From Acidobacteriota bacterium (GTDB lineage: Bacteria; Acidobacteriota; Terriglobia; Bryobacterales; Bryobacteraceae), in the NCBI GenBank assembly GCA_003223115.1, contig QHXW01000003.1, positions 1 through 56,933 of the forward strand: a stretch of 56,933 nucleotides of DNA, read 5' to 3'. Shown in pieces: positions 1 to 8,717 of this stretch. The notes below the pieces were generated by a model. It searched no databases, was not told the DNA's origin, and saw only the letters and a list, made by a program, of their open reading frames with translations. Both the position numbers and the translations under genes were made by a program. Positions within the stretch are counted from its first letter, which is position 1. Each line of letters starts with the position of its first letter.

Positions 1-86
1 GTCCGCTTGACCGCTACGAAGCAAAGATCCAGAACGGGAAACTGCTGTTGGGCGCGCTGCGCGAGTCCGGCGCGAAAAACGCATGA
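1..86 (+). CDS. Rieske iron-sulfur protein, C-terminal end (partial)
   Basis: An open frame enters from the left edge (first full codon at 3) and ends in TGA at 84-86. The last 27 residues read PLDRYEAKIQNGKLLLGALR and a short tail, which resembles the C-terminal strand of Rieske [2Fe-2S] subunits of bc complexes, where a PL-x-RY motif is usual. The Cys/His cluster ligands lie outside the window. The stop overlaps the ATG of the cytochrome b gene (ATGA at 83-86), so the two are probably translationally coupled in a quinol-oxidising complex operon. Identification rests on about 27 residues plus context. Confidence 0.7.
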   Translation, partial: PLDRYEAKIQNGKLLLGALRESGAKNA

Positions 87-1714
87 GCTGGAAGACGCGG
101 CTGATCACCTGGCTCGATCACCGTACGGGCGTCGAGACCGCGGTGCGCAATTTTCTTTACGAAAAAATTCCAGACTCGAGCGGCTGGCGCCAGGTGTTCG
201 GCAGCGTGGCGCTATTTCTGTTCCTGGTGCAGGCCTTCACGGGCGCGCTGCTGGCATTCAACTATGCGCCTACTCCGGGCGATGCCTACAACAGTCTGCG
301 CTATATCCTCACTGAGCTGACCGCCGGCCGGCTGATTCGCGGCCTCCACCACTGGGGCGCCAGCATGATGATCGTGGTGGTGGTGGTGCACATGGTCCAG
401 GTCTTTCTTTATGGCGGATACAAGAAACCGCGAGAGGCCACTTGGATTGCGGGTGTTTTTCTGCTGCTGCTCACGCTGGCCTACGGGTTGACGGGATATC
501 TTCTGCCCTGGGACAACAGAGCCTATTGGGGAACCGTGGTTACTACGCAGATCGCGGCAAAGGCTCCGGTCTTGGGACATTACCTCACCCGTTTGCTGGG
601 CAGCACGGGCGACGTGGGCGTGGTTACTTTCGCGCGTTTTTATGGCCTGCACGTAATGCTGTTGCCACCCGCCACGATGCTGCTGATCGTGCTCCATGTT
701 TATCTGGTTCGCAAGCACGGCGTTGCGCCCGTCCCCGGCGATGAACTACAGCCCGGCCGCAAATTCTATCCAGAGCAGGCATTCAGAGACACCGTCGCCA
801 TTTTTCTCGCGTTCGCGATCTTGTTCGTCATGGCCGCAGCCGTGCACGTGCCGCTCGAAGAGCTGGCCGATCCTACCGACACGACCTACGTGCCCAGACC
901 GGAGTGGTATTTCCTCTTCCTATTTCAGACACTCAAGCTTTTCAAAGGGCCGCTCGAAATGGTCGGAGCAGTCCTCTTGCCTGCGCTCGCCATTCTGGTG
1001 CTGATTCTGGTGCCGTTTGTGGATCGCGGCCGGATCAAGAAAATCACGGAACGAGGGTTCGCGGCGGCAATCGTGGTACTGGCGGCGCTGGGTTGGGCCG
1101 GCTTGACGGCAGTGGCGCTGGTCACCACTCCCAAGCCGGCGGTAGCGCAAGTGGATTTCTCGCAGCCGACGGGCTGGCTCCAACTGTCTCCAATGGAGCT
1201 GGCCGGCATCGGATATTTTCGGGAGGAGAATTGCGCCAGTTGTCACACCCTGGGCGGAGGAAAATCCAGAATCGGCCCGGATCTGGCGAACGTGCCTATC
1301 AAAAGGTCCGCCGCCTGGATGATTCAACACTTCAAACGCCCGTCCGCCATGGTGCCTGGAAGCGCCATGCCCGCCATTCAGCTAACAGACGCTCAACTGA
1401 ACACGCTGGCCGCGTTCCTGCTGAAATTGAATCTACAGAACGCCGAGGCACTGCAATCTGCCCCCGATTTCGCCACGCAGGGCGCGCTGATCTATCAGAA
1501 GAGTTTTTGCGGATCCTGTCATCTGTTGAATGGAGTGGGTATGAAGATTGGCCCGCCGCTCAACGGGCTGGGCAAACGACGCTCTAAGGACTGGGTGGAG
1601 CAGCATTTCCGGAATCCCCAGGCGGCGTCCCCGGGAAGCATCATGCCGGCGTACAAATTCTCGCCGGCCCAGATGCAGGACATCATTTCGTATTTGTTCG
1701 TCCTGCCGGAGTAG
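83..1714 (+). CDS. Cytochrome b fused to a diheme cytochrome c (bc-type complex)
   Basis: 543 residues. This should be the membrane core of a quinol:acceptor bc complex. Residues about 1-350 are cytochrome b: heme ligand pairs H89/H103 and H190/H205, and the quinone-site PEWY motif at 273-276. The second His pair is one residue wider than in mitochondrial-type cytochrome b, as in b6. After the last membrane segment the chain continues into two class I cytochrome c domains, CASCH at about 384 and CGSCH at about 476, each followed by a methionine-containing MP-A segment. Cytochrome b and c1 are normally separate chains, so this is a b-diheme c fusion. It is coupled to the Rieske gene by a 4-base overlap. 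The family call is secure; the electron acceptor is unknown. Confidence 0.93.
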   Translation: MSWKTRLITWLDHRTGVETAVRNFLYEKIPDSSGWRQVFGSVALFLFLVQAFTGALLAFNYAPTPGDAYNSLRYILTELTAGRLIRGLHHWGASMMIVVVVVHMVQVFLYGGYKKPREATWIAGVFLLLLTLAYGLTGYLLPWDNRAYWGTVVTTQIAAKAPVLGHYLTRLLGSTGDVGVVTFARFYGLHVMLLPPATMLLIVLHVYLVRKHGVAPVPGDELQPGRKFYPEQAFRDTVAIFLAFAILFVMAAAVHVPLEELADPTDTTYVPRPEWYFLFLFQTLKLFKGPLEMVGAVLLPALAILVLILVPFVDRGRIKKITERGFAAAIVVLAALGWAGLTAVALVTTPKPAVAQVDFSQPTGWLQLSPMELAGIGYFREENCASCHTLGGGKSRIGPDLANVPIKRSAAWMIQHFKRPSAMVPGSAMPAIQLTDAQLNTLAAFLLKLNLQNAEALQSAPDFATQGALIYQKSFCGSCHLLNGVGMKIGPPLNGLGKRRSKDWVEQHFRNPQAASPGSIMPAYKFSPAQMQDIISYLFVLPE

Positions 1715-1718
1715 CTAA

Positions 1719-1753
1719 AGGCCGCGAGCAACTGCTTCTTGCTTCGGAGGCCT
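1719..1753. terminator. Hairpin between convergent genes, possible bidirectional terminator
   Basis: Nested inverted repeat between the cytochrome b stop and the sigma factor stop: AGGCC (1719-1723) pairs with GGCCT (1749-1753), and AGCAA (1727-1731) pairs with TTGCT (1739-1743). It has no long T run on either side, so Rho-independent activity is uncertain. Its place between two convergent stops supports a terminator role. Confidence 0.35.
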
Positions 1754-2517
1754 ACGCCAGTGCGTCCGGCGAATGAATGCCGGCCGAGTGCAGGGCCTTG
1801 GCCATTTTCTCGAGGGCCGTCTTGCGGATCTGGGAAACGCGACTTTCGTTGATGCCCAGGCCGCCAATTTCTTTCATGGTCATTTCTTTGGTGTAGGCAG
1901 TACAGCAGGACCACCTTCTGATAACGTTCCGGTAGAGTCCGAACTGCTATGGCCAGCACTTCGCGCAATTGCTCGCGAGCGCACATTGAATCCGGCTGGC
2001 TCTCGGCCGCCGCGGGAAACTCCGGCGTCCCCGACTCGTGATCGGAGCTGTAGGTTGATGGCGAAATCAAACCCACCGTCCTTCGTTCCAGAACCACACG
2101 CCGCCAGCGATCTAGGCCCACACCCATCTTCTCGGCGACTTCCAATTCAGTGGGCGTGCGCTGTAACTTCTCCGTCAACTCTCTGTTAATGGCTTCCACC
2201 ATCTTCTGACGCTTGCGCAAGTCTCTCGAAGCCCAGAGCTGCCGCAGGCTGTCCAGAATCGGGCCTTTGATCCGGTACTTCGCGTAGCTGTGAAAGACTA
2301 CTTTAACTTTCTGGTCGGGAGTGTACTTCGAGGCGGCATCGAACAGGCCCAACACACCGGCGTGGACAAGATCATCGAGATCCACATGCACAGGCAGATT
2401 CTCATGGACTCTTACCGCGATGGCCTTCAGCAGCGGAAGGTGAGCGAGCACAATCCGATCCCGGACCACATTCGAGATCTTTTTCCGTTTACGGACCGGC
2501 ACACTCGGAGCCTGCAT
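1752..2517 (-). pseudogene. FliA/WhiG-type sigma-70 factor, interrupted by one frameshift
   Basis: The frame starts at ATG 2517 behind a purine-rich RBS (AGAGGA) and encodes sigma regions 2 to 3 (about residues 20-150, with DLDDLVHAGVLGLFDA and a YRIKGPILDSLR segment typical of the FliA group). Around residue 214, after VVLLYC, the frame breaks near 1893-1903. The next frame continues with YTKEMTMKEIGGLGINES and the region 4.2 helix-turn-helix SRVSQIRKTALEKMAKAL, ending in TAG at 1752-1754. Removing one C of the CC at the break restores a continuous protein of about 255 residues. A consensus error is therefore as likely as a real mutation. FliA factors direct motility or developmental genes, but no flagellar gene is in this window. 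Confidence 0.85.
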
Positions 2518-3372: not shown

Positions 3373-4407
3373 TCAGCGCGCCGGGATGTTGTAAAGATAT
3401 GTGAACTGTAAACGGACTACGTTGCCGCGGAATTCGGTGGGCAAGGGCGGAAATGGATTGGACATGCTGATGCTCGCTACCGCGGCACGATCCAGTGCTT
3501 CGGTGCCTGAAACGGTTCCGAACACCACCTTAGTGACAGAGCCGTTTCTTGCGATGGCAAACTGAACAGCCACTTTCCCGGCCCGGCCCAGCCTGGCGCT
3601 CTCCGGCCATACTGCGAACCAGTTGCGCCGCACGGTGGAGAGAATCTGCAACAAATAGGGCCGGAAATCCACTCCCATCGGGTCACTGAGCAGCTCGAGA
3701 CTGCTGCCGCGCTTTCCAGGCGTTGGCGTCTGGTTGATGGTGTCGCCGATGCCGCTGATTCCCGCGCCTACATCGCCTACCATCAATCCGCCCCCACCTC
3801 CATGCGACAGGCTGCGCACGGCCTCCGTCACCGACGTATTGGGCGGAGCAATTTTGCCCAGGCCGGCGCCCTTGCCTGTTTCCGATCCGCCAGGGCTTTC
3901 AAATGCCAGCTTGGGCTTCTCTTCGGGCTGGATTTGCGGCGGTGGCGGCGCCTGCGGAATCCCTTGTTGCGGCAACTTCGGCCCGGTGTTCTCGGCCGCC
4001 TCGATCTTGGGCGGCTCCGGCAGAGTAGCCATCGTCGGCTTCGGGGCAGGCATCGACAAATTGGGCGCGCTGGGACGTGAGATGGAAGGCGGCGATGGTG
4101 GAATCTGAATGCGGTCGCGCGGCTTGAGCGATTCGACGTTGAATTCTTTGCTGATCTTGCCGCGATTGGGTGTGGTCTGCGTCAGATCCTTGGGTGGAAC
4201 GATCAGCGCGGTGAAATGCCGCGCCGCTGGCTTTGGATGAAATGTTTCGCGCGGCATCAGCAACAAAAGACAGACTGCTACGATGTGCGCGGCGATCGAG
4301 AGCGCTCCCGCGCGCTGTTCTCGCGAGCGGTCTTGTCCATGTTCCCAGGCAAGCAAAAGACGAAGATCTTCCCGGTTTTCTACGGGGGATTGGTCGACGA
4401 CTTCCAT
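3373..4407 (-). CDS. TonB-family energy transducer-like protein
   Basis: 344 residues. A short cytoplasmic N-terminus precedes one membrane segment at about 37-52 (ALSIAAHIVAVCLLLLM). A long Pro/Lys-rich periplasmic linker follows (about 85-185), then a Gly-rich stretch (about 200-225), and a TonB C-terminal-like domain (about 250-344: GKVAVQFAIARNGSV, LDRAAVASISMSNPFPPLP). This is the usual TonB layout: the inner-membrane anchor passes ExbBD energy to outer-membrane receptors. No exbB or exbD is adjacent. Its start overlaps the 3' end of the upstream dehydrogenase gene by 28 bases, so it may be the last gene of the fabZ-lpxA-lpxI operon. Confidence 0.8.
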   Translation of the reverse strand: MEVVDQSPVENREDLRLLLAWEHGQDRSREQRAGALSIAAHIVAVCLLLLMPRETFHPKPAARHFTALIVPPKDLTQTTPNRGKISKEFNVESLKPRDRIQIPPSPPSISRPSAPNLSMPAPKPTMATLPEPPKIEAAENTGPKLPQQGIPQAPPPPQIQPEEKPKLAFESPGGSETGKGAGLGKIAPPNTSVTEAVRSLSHGGGGGLMVGDVGAGISGIGDTINQTPTPGKRGSSLELLSDPMGVDFRPYLLQILSTVRRNWFAVWPESARLGRAGKVAVQFAIARNGSVTKVVFGTVSGTEALDRAAVASISMSNPFPPLPTEFRGNVVRLQFTYLYNIPAR

Positions 4408-5357
4408 CCGGACCCCAGGGCTTGAGCTACGCTGCGCGAGTGCTCTTCAATCTTAGCAAGAATGGCCAGAGCGACTTCCAGGCTTCGACGCGCCTCCGGC
4501 CCGCCCGGTTTCGGCGTCTTACGTGCCGCCACGCACTCGAGAAACGATTCGAGCTGCAATGCCAGCGGCTCGCCCTGGTTAACAGGTAACTGTTCGAACG
4601 AGATCTGGTGATTCGCGCCGACGCTGAAAACCATCACATCCTGGCGGCTATAATCGACCGAAATGTACTGGTGCGGCTGGAACAGGCGCAGTTTGCGCAC
4701 GCGATCGGTGGAGACGCGGCTGGCGGTGATGTTCGCCACACACCCACCCGGAAACTGCAGGCGCACGTTAGCGATATCCACTTTAGGCGTCAGGATCGAA
4801 ATCCCTGCCGCGCGGACCTCTTCAGGCTCACGGTCCACCAGGCTCAGAAGAATGTCGATGTCGTGGATCATCAAGTCGAGCACCACGTCCACATCCAGGC
4901 TGCGCGGGCTGAACACGCTCAGACGGTGGATTTCGAAAAACAGCGGCAGCCGTGCGATTTTCCCGAGTGCCATCACGGCCGGGTTAAAGCGCTCGAGATG
5001 GCCCACCTGCAGGGCGCGCCCGTGCCTTTCAGCGGCGCGGATAAGACGGTCGGCCGAAGGCAGGTCATGAGCAATAGGTTTTTCGACCAGGACATCGGCA
5101 CCGGCTTCGAGAAGCGCGCAGCCGGCGTCCGCATGAGCCGAGGTCGGGACGGCAACGACCGCGGCATCCACCTTGTCCGCCAGCTCACGTGCATCCGTCA
5201 GCGCCATGCAGCCATTGGCCGCGGCGACTTCCTCGGCGCGTGCCCGGTCTGTATCCACCACCGCCACCAATTCCGCCCCAGGCGATTGCCGAATCACCCT
5301 GACATGGTTGCGCCCGAACTCACCGACGCCGACTACTGCCAGACGGAGCTTACTCAT
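4380..5357 (-). CDS. Gfo/Idh/MocA-family NAD(P)-dependent sugar dehydrogenase (GnnA-like candidate)
   Basis: 325 residues. The N-terminal Rossmann fold starts VVGVGEFGRNH (about 8-18) and carries the family EKP motif at 92-94. The C-terminal alpha/beta domain includes the conserved DLMIHDIDILL segment around 160-170. The family oxidises sugar hydroxyls or reduces ketosugars. It sits directly after lpxI and lpxA in one operon. In Acidithiobacillus and Leptospira a family member beside lpxA, GnnA, oxidises the 3-OH of UDP-GlcNAc so that GnnB can aminate it. That role is an inference here, because no GnnB aminotransferase is in the window. Confidence 0.88.
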   Translation of the reverse strand: MSKLRLAVVGVGEFGRNHVRVIRQSPGAELVAVVDTDRARAEEVAAANGCMALTDARELADKVDAAVVAVPTSAHADAGCALLEAGADVLVEKPIAHDLPSADRLIRAAERHGRALQVGHLERFNPAVMALGKIARLPLFFEIHRLSVFSPRSLDVDVVLDLMIHDIDILLSLVDREPEEVRAAGISILTPKVDIANVRLQFPGGCVANITASRVSTDRVRKLRLFQPHQYISVDYSRQDVMVFSVGANHQISFEQLPVNQGEPLALQLESFLECVAARKTPKPGGPEARRSLEVALAILAKIEEHSRSVAQALGSGWKSSTNPP

Positions 5358-5405
5358 AAGCCCGTTTGATGGATATTCGACGAATCGGGAGGCCGCGCCT
5401 CTCTG

Positions 5406-6224
5406 TCACTCTTTTGCCGGTGCATATCCTACGATCGCCACATGGGCTTCGTTCGCTCGTTGAAGCAACTCCTCGCGGTCGAGCATCAACGTCCTTCCGG
5501 CGTCTACAGCCAGGGCCGTCGCGCCGGTTTCCCGCATGACTTTGACCGTCTCTACTCCCACCACCGGCACGTCAAATAACAAATGTTTACGGCGCGCTCC
5601 GGATTTCACCAGCACCAGCGGCCGGCCATTCACTAGCGATGCCGCGCGGCGCAACACGGCATCGGTGCCCTCCATAGCCTCGACCGCCACGCACGCCCGC
5701 CCCGATACAGCCACGCTTTGTCCGACATCCCATCCAGCCAGGGCGCGAGCGATCTCGAGACCATATTCCAGGTCGTCATGCTCGTCTCTAGCGGGCTTAC
5801 GCCGTGTCATCACGCCTAACGGGGCCAGCAGTGGCTTCAGCAGCGCGGTCGAATCGTGGAGATGAATGCCTTCGTCCTTCAATACCTTGGCCACGCCGCC
5901 AATCAGCGCATCGGTATTCTTTCGCGGAAGCCCTGCCAGCATCTTCAACAGGCGCCAATCCGGCCGTATGGAGGAAAAAATATTCGCGTGCTTGATCTGC
6001 CCCGCCATCACCACCTGATGGATACCTTCGCGTTTCAAAATCTCGATTAGGCGGCTCAGCTCGCCCAGCGAAATCCAATAGCAGCGCATGGCCAGTTTCT
6101 CAATCTCGCGCGAAGCTTCCTCTTGAATTCCGATGGCGATGACTTCGTGCCCCAGCTTATGCGCGCTCTCCAGCGTCAACAGGGGGAAGCGGCCGTTTCC
6201 GGCGATCAGACCGTAGCGCATCAT
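5406..6224 (-). CDS. lpxI: UDP-2,3-diacylglucosamine pyrophosphatase LpxI
   Basis: 272 residues, full length for LpxI (DUF1009). The enzyme cleaves UDP-2,3-diacylglucosamine to lipid X and UMP in lipid A synthesis at the inner membrane face, replacing LpxH. Recognisable segments are the N-terminal GLIAGNGRFPLL, GIHQVVMAGQIKH, the glycine-rich middle and the C-terminal LVKSGARRKHLLFDVPVVG. The ATG at 6224 overlaps the lpxA stop by four bases (ATGA), so the genes are translationally coupled. The Gfo/Idh/MocA gene follows after 48 bases. Confidence 0.93.
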   Translation of the reverse strand: MMRYGLIAGNGRFPLLTLESAHKLGHEVIAIGIQEEASREIEKLAMRCYWISLGELSRLIEILKREGIHQVVMAGQIKHANIFSSIRPDWRLLKMLAGLPRKNTDALIGGVAKVLKDEGIHLHDSTALLKPLLAPLGVMTRRKPARDEHDDLEYGLEIARALAGWDVGQSVAVSGRACVAVEAMEGTDAVLRRAASLVNGRPLVLVKSGARRKHLLFDVPVVGVETVKVMRETGATALAVDAGRTLMLDREELLQRANEAHVAIVGYAPAKE

Positions 6225-6997
6225 TTCACAAATCCGCGCTCAGCGGAACGCATGAATTCGAGCAGCTCTTCAAGTTCGGAAGAATTCGGAATTTCGGCTC
6301 GAATGCGCTCCACTGCCTGCGTGGTGTTCAGACCGGCCCTCGTCAGCAATCGAAAAGCCTTCTGCAAATCTTCGATCCGATCGTTCGAAAACCCGCGGCG
6401 CTCGAGCCCGGTCCGATTGGCGCCAAACACGCGGATTTCGCGTTCACTCACCGTACTTGAATAGGGCAGAATGTCCTGCGTCACCACGCTGTATCCGCCG
6501 ATGAACGCGTGCCGGCCCACCCTGCAGAACTGGTGGACGCCCGTGTAGGCGCCGACGATGGCCCAGTCCGCAACCATCACGTGGCCGCCAAGTGTCGCGC
6601 CATGAGAGAGCACCGCATGATTTCCCACCTGCGCATCGTGCGCCACGTGGACGTAAGCCATCAGCAGGTTGTCATCGCCAATTTTGGTTACCAGGCCGCC
6701 GCCTCCGGTGCCGCGATGAATGGTGACGAATTCACGGATTTTGTTGCGGCTGCCGATGCGCGTCTCGGCGCGCTCCCCCTTGTACTTTAGATCCTGTGAC
6801 GCCACGCCGACGGTGCTGTACGGATAGAAGATGTTGTCCTCGCCAATCCAGGTGGGCCCTTCGATATAGACATGCGCCATCAATCGGGAACCCGCGCCGA
6901 TTTCTACATCAGCGCCAACAATCGAATAAGGTCCAACTTCCGCCGTCTGGGCGATGCGTGCCTTGGAATCACAAATCGCGTTGGGATGGACGGGCAT
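6221..6997 (-). CDS. lpxA: Acyl-ACP--UDP-N-acetylglucosamine O-acyltransferase LpxA
   Basis: 258 residues, usual length. It performs the first step of lipid A synthesis, moving 3-hydroxyacyl from ACP to UDP-GlcNAc. The N-terminal two-thirds is a left-handed beta-helix of hexapeptide repeats. VAHDAQVGN around 118-126 contains the catalytic His (H120), and HQFCRVGRHAFIGG is the conserved coil near 165. The C-terminal helical domain is present. Start at ATG 6997. The gene follows fabZ by 74 bases and overlaps lpxI by four. If the neighbouring dehydrogenase is GnnA-like, this LpxA could prefer UDP-GlcNAc3N, which the sequence alone cannot show. Confidence 0.95.
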   Translation of the reverse strand: MPVHPNAICDSKARIAQTAEVGPYSIVGADVEIGAGSRLMAHVYIEGPTWIGEDNIFYPYSTVGVASQDLKYKGERAETRIGSRNKIREFVTIHRGTGGGGLVTKIGDDNLLMAYVHVAHDAQVGNHAVLSHGATLGGHVMVADWAIVGAYTGVHQFCRVGRHAFIGGYSVVTQDILPYSSTVSEREIRVFGANRTGLERRGFSNDRIEDLQKAFRLLTRAGLNTTQAVERIRAEIPNSSELEELLEFMRSAERGFVK

Positions 6998-7071
6998 CGA
7001 TCAGCGGCTGCGCGCGAGCACTGCGGTTTCGCGGAGTGTCCCCCGAAAAAATCCTTCGATATCGAGCGACA

Positions 7072-7551
7072 TCAAACTTTTTCCACGGGCTGGAGAACCG
7101 GCGGCGGTTGGAGTTCGTTCTTGTCCGCCAGCTTGCACATGACTTCGGCCTCGGCTACCACCACACCATTGACGGTGGCGCGGCCCTCCATGACGGCCAC
7201 GGTATGCTTGCGCCGGACCACGGTCATCTCCAGGCGCAGCTGGTCGCCGGGAATCACCGGCTTGCGAAATTTCGCGCGTTCGATCGATACCAGCAGAACA
7301 CGCTTGCTTTCGCGGTCCGGAATGCTCTTGAGCACCAGGACGCCCGCGGTCTGCGCCATGGCTTCCACGATTAGCACTCCCGGCATCACCAGAAAGTCCG
7401 GAAAATGGCCGGCGAAAAAAGGCTCATTGGCTGTGACGTTCTTGATGCCGACGATGCGTTCCGAATCCAGTTCGACGATGCGATCCACTAGCAGCATGGG
7501 ATAGCGATGCGGCAGGATCTCGCGGATCTCATTGATATCCAAAATGGGCAT
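7072..7551 (-). CDS. fabZ: 3-hydroxyacyl-[acyl-carrier-protein] dehydratase FabZ
   Basis: 159 residues, hot-dog fold. It dehydrates 3-hydroxyacyl-ACP in fatty acid elongation and so competes with LpxA for 3-hydroxyacyl-ACP, which explains the shared operon. Visible motifs are LPHRYPMLLVDR (13-24), FFAGHFP with catalytic H49, and PGVLIVEAMAQ with catalytic E63. The start at ATG 7551 lies only 23 bases from the divergent peptidase start. A perfect TATAAT ends 11 bases upstream of the ATG. No lpxD precedes it here. Confidence 0.95.
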   Translation of the reverse strand: MPILDINEIREILPHRYPMLLVDRIVELDSERIVGIKNVTANEPFFAGHFPDFLVMPGVLIVEAMAQTAGVLVLKSIPDRESKRVLLVSIERAKFRKPVIPGDQLRLEMTVVRRKHTVAVMEGRATVNGVVVAEAEVMCKLADKNELQPPPVLQPVEKV

Positions 7552-7574: not shown

Positions 7575-8717
7575 GTGGATGAAGTCCTCGCTCACGTTCA
7601 AGCGCAGCAAAACGAGCTGATTGCGCTTATCCGGCGGTTTGTGGAGTGCGAGTCGCCCAGCGACGATCCGCACGCCGTGAACGGCTTTGTAGATCTGATA
7701 GCGTCAACCGTCGAGCCTTTCGCAGGCGTCGAGACCTTCGCCGGCGGCGGCTTCGGGCAGCATCTGTTGTGCGAGTTTGCGCTGCCCGGGCCGGCCAAAA
7801 GGAAAGGCGACATCCTGGCGTTGGGACATTCCGATACCGTATGGCCCATGGGCACGCTCGCCAAAATGCCGTTTCGTAACGAAAAAGGGCGCCTTTGGGG
7901 ACCAGGCGTGCTCGACATGAAGGCGGGCATCGCGTTCTTCATTTTCGCCATGCGTGCGCTGCGCGATCTGGACATCCCGGTGCGCAGCCGCGTCAGAATG
8001 CTGATCAATTCTGACGAAGAGGTCGGCAGCGATTCTTCACGCCACCTGACCCAGGAAACCGCGCGCCGGGCCAAAGCCGTCCTGGTGCTGGAACCGGGCA
8101 CCGGCCTTGAAGGCAAACTCAAGACCGCGCGCAAAGGCGTGGGCGATTACACCATAAACGTGCACGGACGGGCCTCTCACGCCGGCGTCGATTTCACCGC
8201 GGGCGCGAGCGCCATCGTGGAACTGGCCCGCCAGATCGAGCGCGTTGGCGGATTCACGAATCTGAAGCGCGGCATCACGGTAAATCCGGGCCTGATCTCC
8301 GGCGGCTCGCGCTCGAACGTCGTGGCGGCAGAAGCGAGCGCAGTAGTGGACATTCGTGTCCCGCGTTTGCGCGATGCGGAAGTACTCGATCGCAAATTTC
8401 GCGCTTTGAAGCCGTTCGATAAACGCTGCAAGATCGAAGTGTCCGGCGGATTGAACCGGCCGCCCATGGAACGTTCCGTGGCCATTGTTCAACTCTTCCG
8501 CACCGCTCAGCAGCTCGCGCGGGAATTGGGCGTTGAGCTCGAAGAATCCATGACGGGTGGCGGCTCGGACGGTAATTTTACGGCTGCGCTCGGCATCCCG
8601 ACGCTGGACGGCCTGGGCGGCGTGGGCGAAGGGGCTCATGCATCGCACGAAAGCATCCTGGTCAATCGTATGGCCGACCGGACCGGGCTCCTGGCGAAGC
8701 TGGTCGCGGCTCTTTAG
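7575..8717 (+). CDS. M20-family zinc peptidase (glutamate carboxypeptidase-like)
   Basis: 380 residues from a GTG start at 7575; the next in-frame Met lies deep inside the domain and the N-terminal residues match M20 proteins. Metal ligands and catalytic residues are visible: GHSDTVWPMG (about 90-99), GPGVLDMKAG (112-121), INSDEEVGS (Glu pair near 150), LEPG (about 175) and a C-terminal HASHES. A bacterial exopeptidase dimerisation domain lies between about 190 and 290. Closest in type to CPG2-like carboxypeptidases that release C-terminal glutamate; the substrate is not predictable. No signal peptide. It is divergent from fabZ with almost no space. Confidence 0.88.
   Translation: MDEVLAHVQAQQNELIALIRRFVECESPSDDPHAVNGFVDLIASTVEPFAGVETFAGGGFGQHLLCEFALPGPAKRKGDILALGHSDTVWPMGTLAKMPFRNEKGRLWGPGVLDMKAGIAFFIFAMRALRDLDIPVRSRVRMLINSDEEVGSDSSRHLTQETARRAKAVLVLEPGTGLEGKLKTARKGVGDYTINVHGRASHAGVDFTAGASAIVELARQIERVGGFTNLKRGITVNPGLISGGSRSNVVAAEASAVVDIRVPRLRDAEVLDRKFRALKPFDKRCKIEVSGGLNRPPMERSVAIVQLFRTAQQLARELGVELEESMTGGGSDGNFTAALGIPTLDGLGGVGEGAHASHESILVNRMADRTGLLAKLVAAL

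Follow-up and report, generated by a model that had tools for sequence, protein, structure and literature searches.

A GnnA-type dehydrogenase in the lipid A operon of an Acidobacteriota bacterium and a candidate unlinked aminotransferase partner

The window analysed here, i.e. the whole stretch of 56,933 nucleotides of contig QHXW01000003.1 from an Acidobacteriota bacterium, carries next to fabZ, lpxA and lpxI a gene (positions 4380-5357) whose product is, on the basis of sequence and predicted fold, GnnA, with a predicted activity as UDP-N-acetylglucosamine 3-dehydrogenase. Together with an aminotransferase of the DegT family encoded elsewhere in the genome, and with the LpxA of the operon, this enzyme would lead to a lipid A with amide-linked instead of ester-linked acyl chains, a pathway that, taken as a whole, appears reasonably probable. 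Amide-linked lipid A is known chemistry and differs in chemical stability; it is probably found throughout the Acidobacteriota, and, if this is true, it concerns the lipid A of a major phylum. Its relevance for innate immune recognition is indicated by Campylobacter jejuni, in which activation of TLR4 rose on loss of gnnA and gnnB (PMC8036547). No lipid A structure of any Acidobacteriota member was found in searches of the open-licence literature.

The lipid A operon and its dehydrogenase

The genes of interest are all on the minus strand, as follows.

7072..7551, minus strand: fabZ, 3-hydroxyacyl-ACP dehydratase (TIGR01750, 190.5 bits, cut-off of 155 exceeded)
6221..6997, minus strand: lpxA, UDP-GlcNAc (or UDP-GlcNAc3N) acyltransferase (TIGR01852, 302 bits, cut-off of 231 exceeded)
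5406..6224, minus strand: lpxI, UDP-2,3-diacylglucosamine pyrophosphatase (Pfam LpxI_N at 2.4e-36, LpxI_C at 4.5e-39)
4380..5357, minus strand: gnnA, predicted UDP-N-acetylglucosamine 3-dehydrogenase of the Gfo/Idh/MocA family (sequence, fold and tree)
3373..4407, minus strand: TonB C-terminal domain protein (TonB_C at 2.1e-8)

The order fabZ-lpxA-lpxI-dehydrogenase proposed in the initial annotation is borne out by the strand and family matches of the four genes, with LpxI reaching 134.6 bits, below the NCBIfam LpxI equivalog cut-off of 400, and the gnnA product matching Pfam GFO_IDH_MocA at 6e-30. Gaps of 74 and 48 bases separate fabZ from lpxA and lpxI from gnnA, respectively, and lpxA shares 4 bases with lpxI; a further 28 bases are common to the end of gnnA and the start of the TonB-C gene, the two genes being possibly co-transcribed. 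A promoter and terminator scan gave no signal exceeding that of shuffled sequences. Genes for LpxD and LpxB, the two further proteins searched for, are present in the genome, lpxB being on another contig.

In a phmmer search of the PDB, the dehydrogenase matched 7bvj at E 2.5e-52, the second match being at 4.8e-21. Foldseek, starting from the predicted fold, retrieved the same entry, which is the GnnA of Acidithiobacillus ferrooxidans (E 1.4e-33, TM 0.89/0.95; next protein at 7e-24), with 36% identity and an rmsd of 1.5 Å between the two proteins. In a quick tree, calculated without bootstrap and with long branches on some of the outside rows, the window protein falls inside a GnnA clade (98 SH-aLRT, branch 1.15; 57 rows), which includes GnnAs with an aminotransferase nearby, while 12 of 12 tested paralogues from the same genome, which holds 42 more Gfo/Idh/MocA matches, fall outside. 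The PDB match, the predicted fold and the tree thus sustain the earlier suggestion of a GnnA-like protein, which groups with characterised GnnA and away from unrelated members of the Gfo/Idh/MocA family. The E92-K93-P94 and D161-x3-H165 motifs are invariant across 24 GnnAs of diverse phyla, and the Rossmann EKP lysine and the D-x3-H element are those of the catalytic site of the family. A WlbA-like identity was rejected, the WlbA-like protein of the genome (L002) lying outside the GnnA clade and in a separate wlb-type cluster on contig C585.

GnnA was detected in 141 of 149 Acidobacteriota genomes (130/132 among the good ones), as a single copy per genome at E <= 1e-40, and LpxA is also undetected in seven of the eight genomes that are devoid of GnnA, including both good ones. 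LpxA or LpxI was detected in short flanks of GnnA (approx. 1.5 kb) in 21 of the 29 best Acidobacteriota loci and in the flanks of 42 of 80 named loci from many phyla, the latter a set with the full 8 kb on both sides in only 35 loci and with LpxA on the opposite strand in a few. Because LpxA and LpxI recur in the flanks in this way, the gene order is not due to chance. Neither in the window nor in the Acidobacteriota loci that were read does an aminotransferase gene adjoin gnnA.

The aminotransferase step

The lipid A operon of the window contains no DegT gene; the nine full-length DegT aminotransferases of the genome are encoded on other contigs, and their presence led us to reject the absence of any GnnB-type enzyme. 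The genome search for a GnnB homologue, which the initial annotation had proposed as a check, yielded one reasonable candidate among them, namely the DegT protein on contig C72 (L031/L160), which matches PF01041 with 384.5 bits and carries a lysine, K193, that is invariant in A2 and is presumably the PLP lysine. This protein ranks first of the nine both with an alpha-type profile (397 bits vs 357 and 323) and with a profile of 15 gamma-type DegTs linked to the operon (459 vs 404 and 382). With the latter, 27 rows score above the C72 protein, 12 of which are DegTs that carry L/V/I-H, a residue pair typical of rows other than GnnB, and the top score, 526 vs 459, is that of PDB entry 7b0d, which weakens likeness to linked GnnBs as a means to identify GnnB.

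The C72 candidate belongs to a clade (L031 clade; 42 rows, 99 SH-aLRT) with zero operon-linked members, and 15 of the 17 linked DegTs fall in clades apart from it, the other two being unplaced. The clade is represented in 0/10 genomes with an operon-linked GnnB vs 54/118 (Fisher 0.005) and, among the Acidobacteriota, in 0/14 genomes with an alpha-type GnnB vs 77/127 (Fisher 6.6e-6), values that overstate independence because the genomes are related. Such a distribution fits a replacement of the linked GnnB, with genomes G087 and G097 as exceptions: in both, an L031-type DegT occurs together with a gamma-like one that is unlinked, and exclusivity is therefore imperfect. Of the 141 GnnA-bearing Acidobacteriota genomes, 50 hold neither an L031-type nor an alpha-type DegT. 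The L031 type is also found in 2 of 20 Desulfobacterota that lack GnnA, and all 18 GnnA-bearing genomes tested encode one or more DegTs that match L031 at E <= 1e-78.

The residues Q299 and Y324 (numbering of the trimmed L031 row), which were chosen post hoc, are common to linked GnnB and the L031 clade; two columns are shared by linked and L031 rows, five by linked and other rows and four by L031 and other rows. Both residues are present in 10 of the 12 readable alpha-type DegTs obtained afterwards (from 13 of the 14 genomes, L311 being unreadable and L302 already part of the earlier set). However, the diagnostic value of the pair for GnnB is weakened by the failed control, i.e. the finding of the glutamine in five of nine GnnA-lacking genomes examined, out of 20. 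In GnnA-bearing Desulfobacterota with neither DegT type (20 of 64 genomes sampled, L343 being incomplete), the glutamine is present in only 9 of 19 readable best matches.

Genes for a UDP-sugar dehydrogenase, a polysaccharide deacetylase and an FkbM methyltransferase neighbour that of the C72 DegT, so that its surroundings resemble an exopolysaccharide locus. Inspection by eye places some clade members from elsewhere (L224, L238) beside nucleotide-sugar genes and the L031-type DegTs of several further genomes among housekeeping genes; a Kdo/WaaP kinase gene adjoins two members of the clade, both from one family. The C72 protein is a reasonable candidate for GnnB, a role that similarity and residue signature do not prove, and gnnB cannot be annotated from gene neighbourhood. 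Extended to the phylum, a tentative reading, to which we would give somewhat less than an even chance, is that the lipid A of Acidobacteriota is built on 2,3-diaminoglucose and carries amide-linked chains, that GnnA is kept approximately as firmly as LpxA and mostly within the operon, and that the GnnB step has been repeatedly taken over by non-sister DegTs that are unlinked. Within this reading, operon-based searches miss the GnnA-GnnB pair because of such a takeover.

Proposed pathway and alternative roles

In the pathway that we infer, as regards each reaction, the choice of the DegT as GnnB, the preference of LpxA and the lipid A structure, GnnA would turn UDP-GlcNAc into its 3-keto form by NAD+-dependent oxidation of the 3-hydroxyl, amination of this sugar by an unlinked DegT (with the C72 protein as the best candidate) would give UDP-GlcNAc3N, and the LpxA of the operon would acylate the new 3-amino group. 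LpxC, LpxD, LpxI and LpxB would then complete a lipid A in which 2,3-diamino-2,3-dideoxyglucose would make up at least part of the backbone and would carry its primary acyl chains in amide linkage. The window LpxA keeps the E. coli positions H122, H125, D126, G143, H144, Q161 and G173; the catalytic positions compared are common to the E. coli, Leptospira and window proteins and do not distinguish UDP-GlcNAc from UDP-GlcNAc3N as the substrate. No position of LpxA is known to discriminate between the two.

The 3-keto product of a true GnnA could instead be destined for a surface polysaccharide or a different amino sugar and not for lipid A, in which case the position of the gene in the operon would simply be inherited. 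The missing gnnB, the exopolysaccharide-like surroundings of the best aminotransferase candidate, the occurrence of 3-amino sugars in polysaccharides and the separate wlb-like cluster of the genome speak for such a role, which is nonetheless unlikely: a near-universal, single-copy GnnA fits a housekeeping function in lipid A synthesis, GnnA and LpxA are mostly absent together, their linkage, or that with LpxI, extends across many phyla, and the L031-type DegT lies among housekeeping genes in several other genomes. Equally improbable is a GnnA that, orphaned of a linked gnnB, has drifted to another reaction on lipid A precursors (e.g. redox or epimerization) with lipid A retaining GlcN. The genomes with neither DegT type are in favour of it, since by these criteria GnnA and GnnB need not occur together, but the protein retains residues of the catalytic type and the overall fold, and each GnnA-bearing genome tested has an L031-matching DegT. 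That the protein belongs to another branch of the large Gfo/Idh/MocA family (inositol, WlbA-type or general sugar dehydrogenases), so well represented in this genome, and lies among lipid A genes by coincidence is highly improbable given the tree, the conserved synteny and the lead of approximately 31 orders of magnitude that 7bvj has over the second PDB match.

Comparison with known systems

The GnnA of A. ferrooxidans (PDB 7bvj/7bvk) shares fold and clade with that of the window and, to judge from the relative L080, also the neighbourhood of lpxA; the window differs in the presence of lpxI between lpxA and gnnA and in the lack of an adjacent gnnB. The Desulfobacterota operons L284 and L285 (genomes G195, G231 and G263, L287 included) read lpxD-fabZ-lpxA-lpxI-gnnA-DegT-lpxB, and L287 has the same order up to the contig end, stopping after DegT. 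The segment fabZ-lpxA-lpxI-gnnA is, therefore, common to these three and the window, whereas gnnA is followed by DegT and lpxB in L284 and L285 and by the TonB-C gene in the window. The same gene order as in organisms with GnnA and GnnB had been claimed for this DNA: the proximity of gnnA to lpxA holds, while, in comparison with L080, L284, L285 and L287, gnnB is missing, which is what sets the window apart from operons with adjacent gnnA and gnnB.

By family name, the archaeal UDP-GlcNAc 3-dehydrogenase (NF040723) catalyses the same reaction; it is the top NCBIfam match of the window GnnA, at 206.8 bits and, thus, under the equivalog cut-off of 450. The lipid A of Mesorhizobium loti is built on GlcN3N. 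In this organism gnnA and gnnB occupy separate places, both away from lpxA (PMC5644692), a precedent for the separation of gnnA from the candidate gnnB in the genome studied here, with gnnA outside the lpxA cluster in M. loti and inside it in the window.

Gene order and identity of the dehydrogenase

The order fabZ, lpxA, lpxI and then a Gfo/Idh/MocA dehydrogenase gene, which in the initial annotation had hinted at an unusual lipid A, is borne out for the window, where all four genes are minus-strand:

7551-7072, minus, fabZ, over the curated NCBIfam cut-off
6997-6221, minus, lpxA, over the curated NCBIfam cut-off
6224-5406, minus, lpxI, both Pfam domains, under the NCBIfam equivalog cut-off
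5357-4380, minus, Gfo/Idh/MocA dehydrogenase (gnnA), GFO_IDH_MocA domain

The lpxA and lpxI genes overlap by 4 bases, and gnnA and the next gene (for a TonB-C protein) by 28. Divergent from fabZ, with start codons 23 bases apart, lies an M20 peptidase gene (7575-8717, plus strand). By eye, an open frame at 83-1714 (plus) resembles a fusion of cytochrome b with a pair of c-type haem motifs, CASCH and CGSCH, and the C-terminal part of a sigma-factor-like frame at 1519-2517 (minus) is seemingly out of frame, possibly owing to a frameshift or an assembly error.

Judged from sequence and predicted model, the dehydrogenase is GnnA, the UDP-GlcNAc 3-dehydrogenase which, paired with the DegT aminotransferase GnnB, leads to UDP-GlcNAc3N for amide-linked lipid A. 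Its top PDB sequence match is the GnnA of Acidithiobacillus ferrooxidans (7bvj; E 2.5e-52, runner-up 4.8e-21), which the predicted model (mean pLDDT 95) also resembles most (E 1.4e-33, TM 0.89/0.95; next protein 7e-24). In a 57-row tree, obtained by a quick method with no bootstrap and with some long branches outside the clade, the enzyme groups with 7bvj and the seven named GnnAs having an aminotransferase nearby (98 SH-aLRT), away from twelve Gfo/Idh/MocA paralogues of its own genome, one of them WlbA-like, in keeping with the proposed assignment. EKP and D-x3-H are invariant across 24 diverse GnnA members, and the nearest of 23 sequences compared are those of three named Acidobacteria MAGs (L113, L138, L154; 49-55% identity), which points to Acidobacteriota as the window's phylum. 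The window's genome also carries a wlb-like cluster (L162, G000:C585:28000-39130) of Gfo dehydrogenase, acetyltransferase, DegT aminotransferase and epimerase which, as read by eye, is a separate 3-amino sugar pathway.

Distribution of GnnA

In the window's phylum, 141 of 149 genomes, among them 130 of the 132 good ones, have GnnA, with one match each (E <= 1e-40). In Desulfobacterota, the phylum of Desulfopila, it is found in 131/148 genomes (E <= 1e-30). An LpxA match (E <= 1e-30) is absent too in seven of the eight GnnA-less genomes of the window's phylum, although part of this joint absence may be a shared assembly gap, because the genes are often neighbours. In G072 of the same phylum (95% complete, 30 contigs), which has neither match, both genes look truly absent, which may reflect a loss of LPS.

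Among 80 named GnnA loci from many phyla, many with flanks ending at contig ends, LpxA or LpxI is found in the flank of 42 and DegT in that of 8, 7 of them counted as linked (one large ORF separates gnnA from DegT in L144, and a different DegT lies about 5 kb off in L088). Thus, GnnA commonly lies among lipid A genes with no gnnB close by. In a WOR-3 MAG (L158, 2457-3722), lpxC and fabZ are apparently fused directly ahead of lpxA and gnnA (lpxC part by eye).

A candidate aminotransferase on another contig

PF01041 gives 20 matches in the window's genome, nine of them full-length, among which the DegT on contig C72 (L031, L160) ranks first both by the alpha-type profile and by one from 15 gamma-type DegTs linked to gnnA. 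In trees it belongs to a clade (L031-type; 42 rows, 99 SH-aLRT) whose members are unlinked and come from Desulfobacterota as well as the window's phylum. Of the 17 linked DegTs, 13 are placed in a gamma clade and 2 in an alpha clade with PDB 4qgr; 2 (L094, L291) are unplaced. With kinship ignored in all Fisher tests, the L031-type occurs in Desulfobacterota in 0/10 linked-DegT genomes versus 54/118 other GnnA genomes (0.005), and in 2/20 genomes lacking GnnA (cut-offs of 1e-40 and 1e-30 give 0.006 and 0.018, respectively); in the window's phylum, the 141 GnnA genomes comprise 77 with the L031-type, 14 with the alpha-type, none with both (6.6e-6) and 50 with neither. The gene adjoins a Kdo/WaaP kinase gene in two genomes of one family; elsewhere, by eye, it is surrounded by housekeeping genes in several genomes and adjoined by nucleotide-sugar genes in some. 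In G124 (L292, L365), gnnA lies >1 Mb from the lpxA locus on the same contig, and an L031-type DegT about 30 kb from lpxA.

Against this candidate, its surroundings in the window's genome resemble exopolysaccharide genes, and 27 rows outscore it with a linked-only profile, including PDB 7b0d (526 against 459); 12 of these (7b0d and 11 others) bear the non-GnnB residue pair. A two-residue signature, picked only after the sequences had been compared, proved non-diagnostic when checked against a control. Furthermore, G087 and G097 each hold an L031-type together with an unlinked gamma-like enzyme.

Proposed route and related operons

Most likely, GnnA would convert UDP-GlcNAc to the 3-keto sugar, an unlinked GnnB would aminate it and LpxA would N-acylate C3, the usual pathway then leading to a lipid A in which at least one sugar bears amide-linked primary chains. 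For that pathway, the genome has genes for LpxD and LpxB. Escherichia coli LpxA accepts both UDP-GlcNAc and UDP-GlcNAc3N, and the LpxA residues compared do not discriminate between these substrates. The GnnA/GnnB pathway itself is already known; as far as literature listings show, the near-universal GnnA of the window's phylum and a displaced, apparently non-orthologous GnnB are new.

That gnnA and gnnB can be separate is described for Mesorhizobium loti in PMC5644692. In ten Desulfobacterota genomes DegT adjoins gnnA, with lpxI intervening in one. Two of the loci (L284, L285) read lpxD-fabZ-lpxA-lpxI-gnnA-DegT-lpxB, a third (L287) has the same order as far as DegT, where the contig ends, and in the remaining ones lpxI is not detected or the locus is clipped by contig ends. 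The L284 and L285 operons have the gene order of the window, but with their aminotransferase in place.
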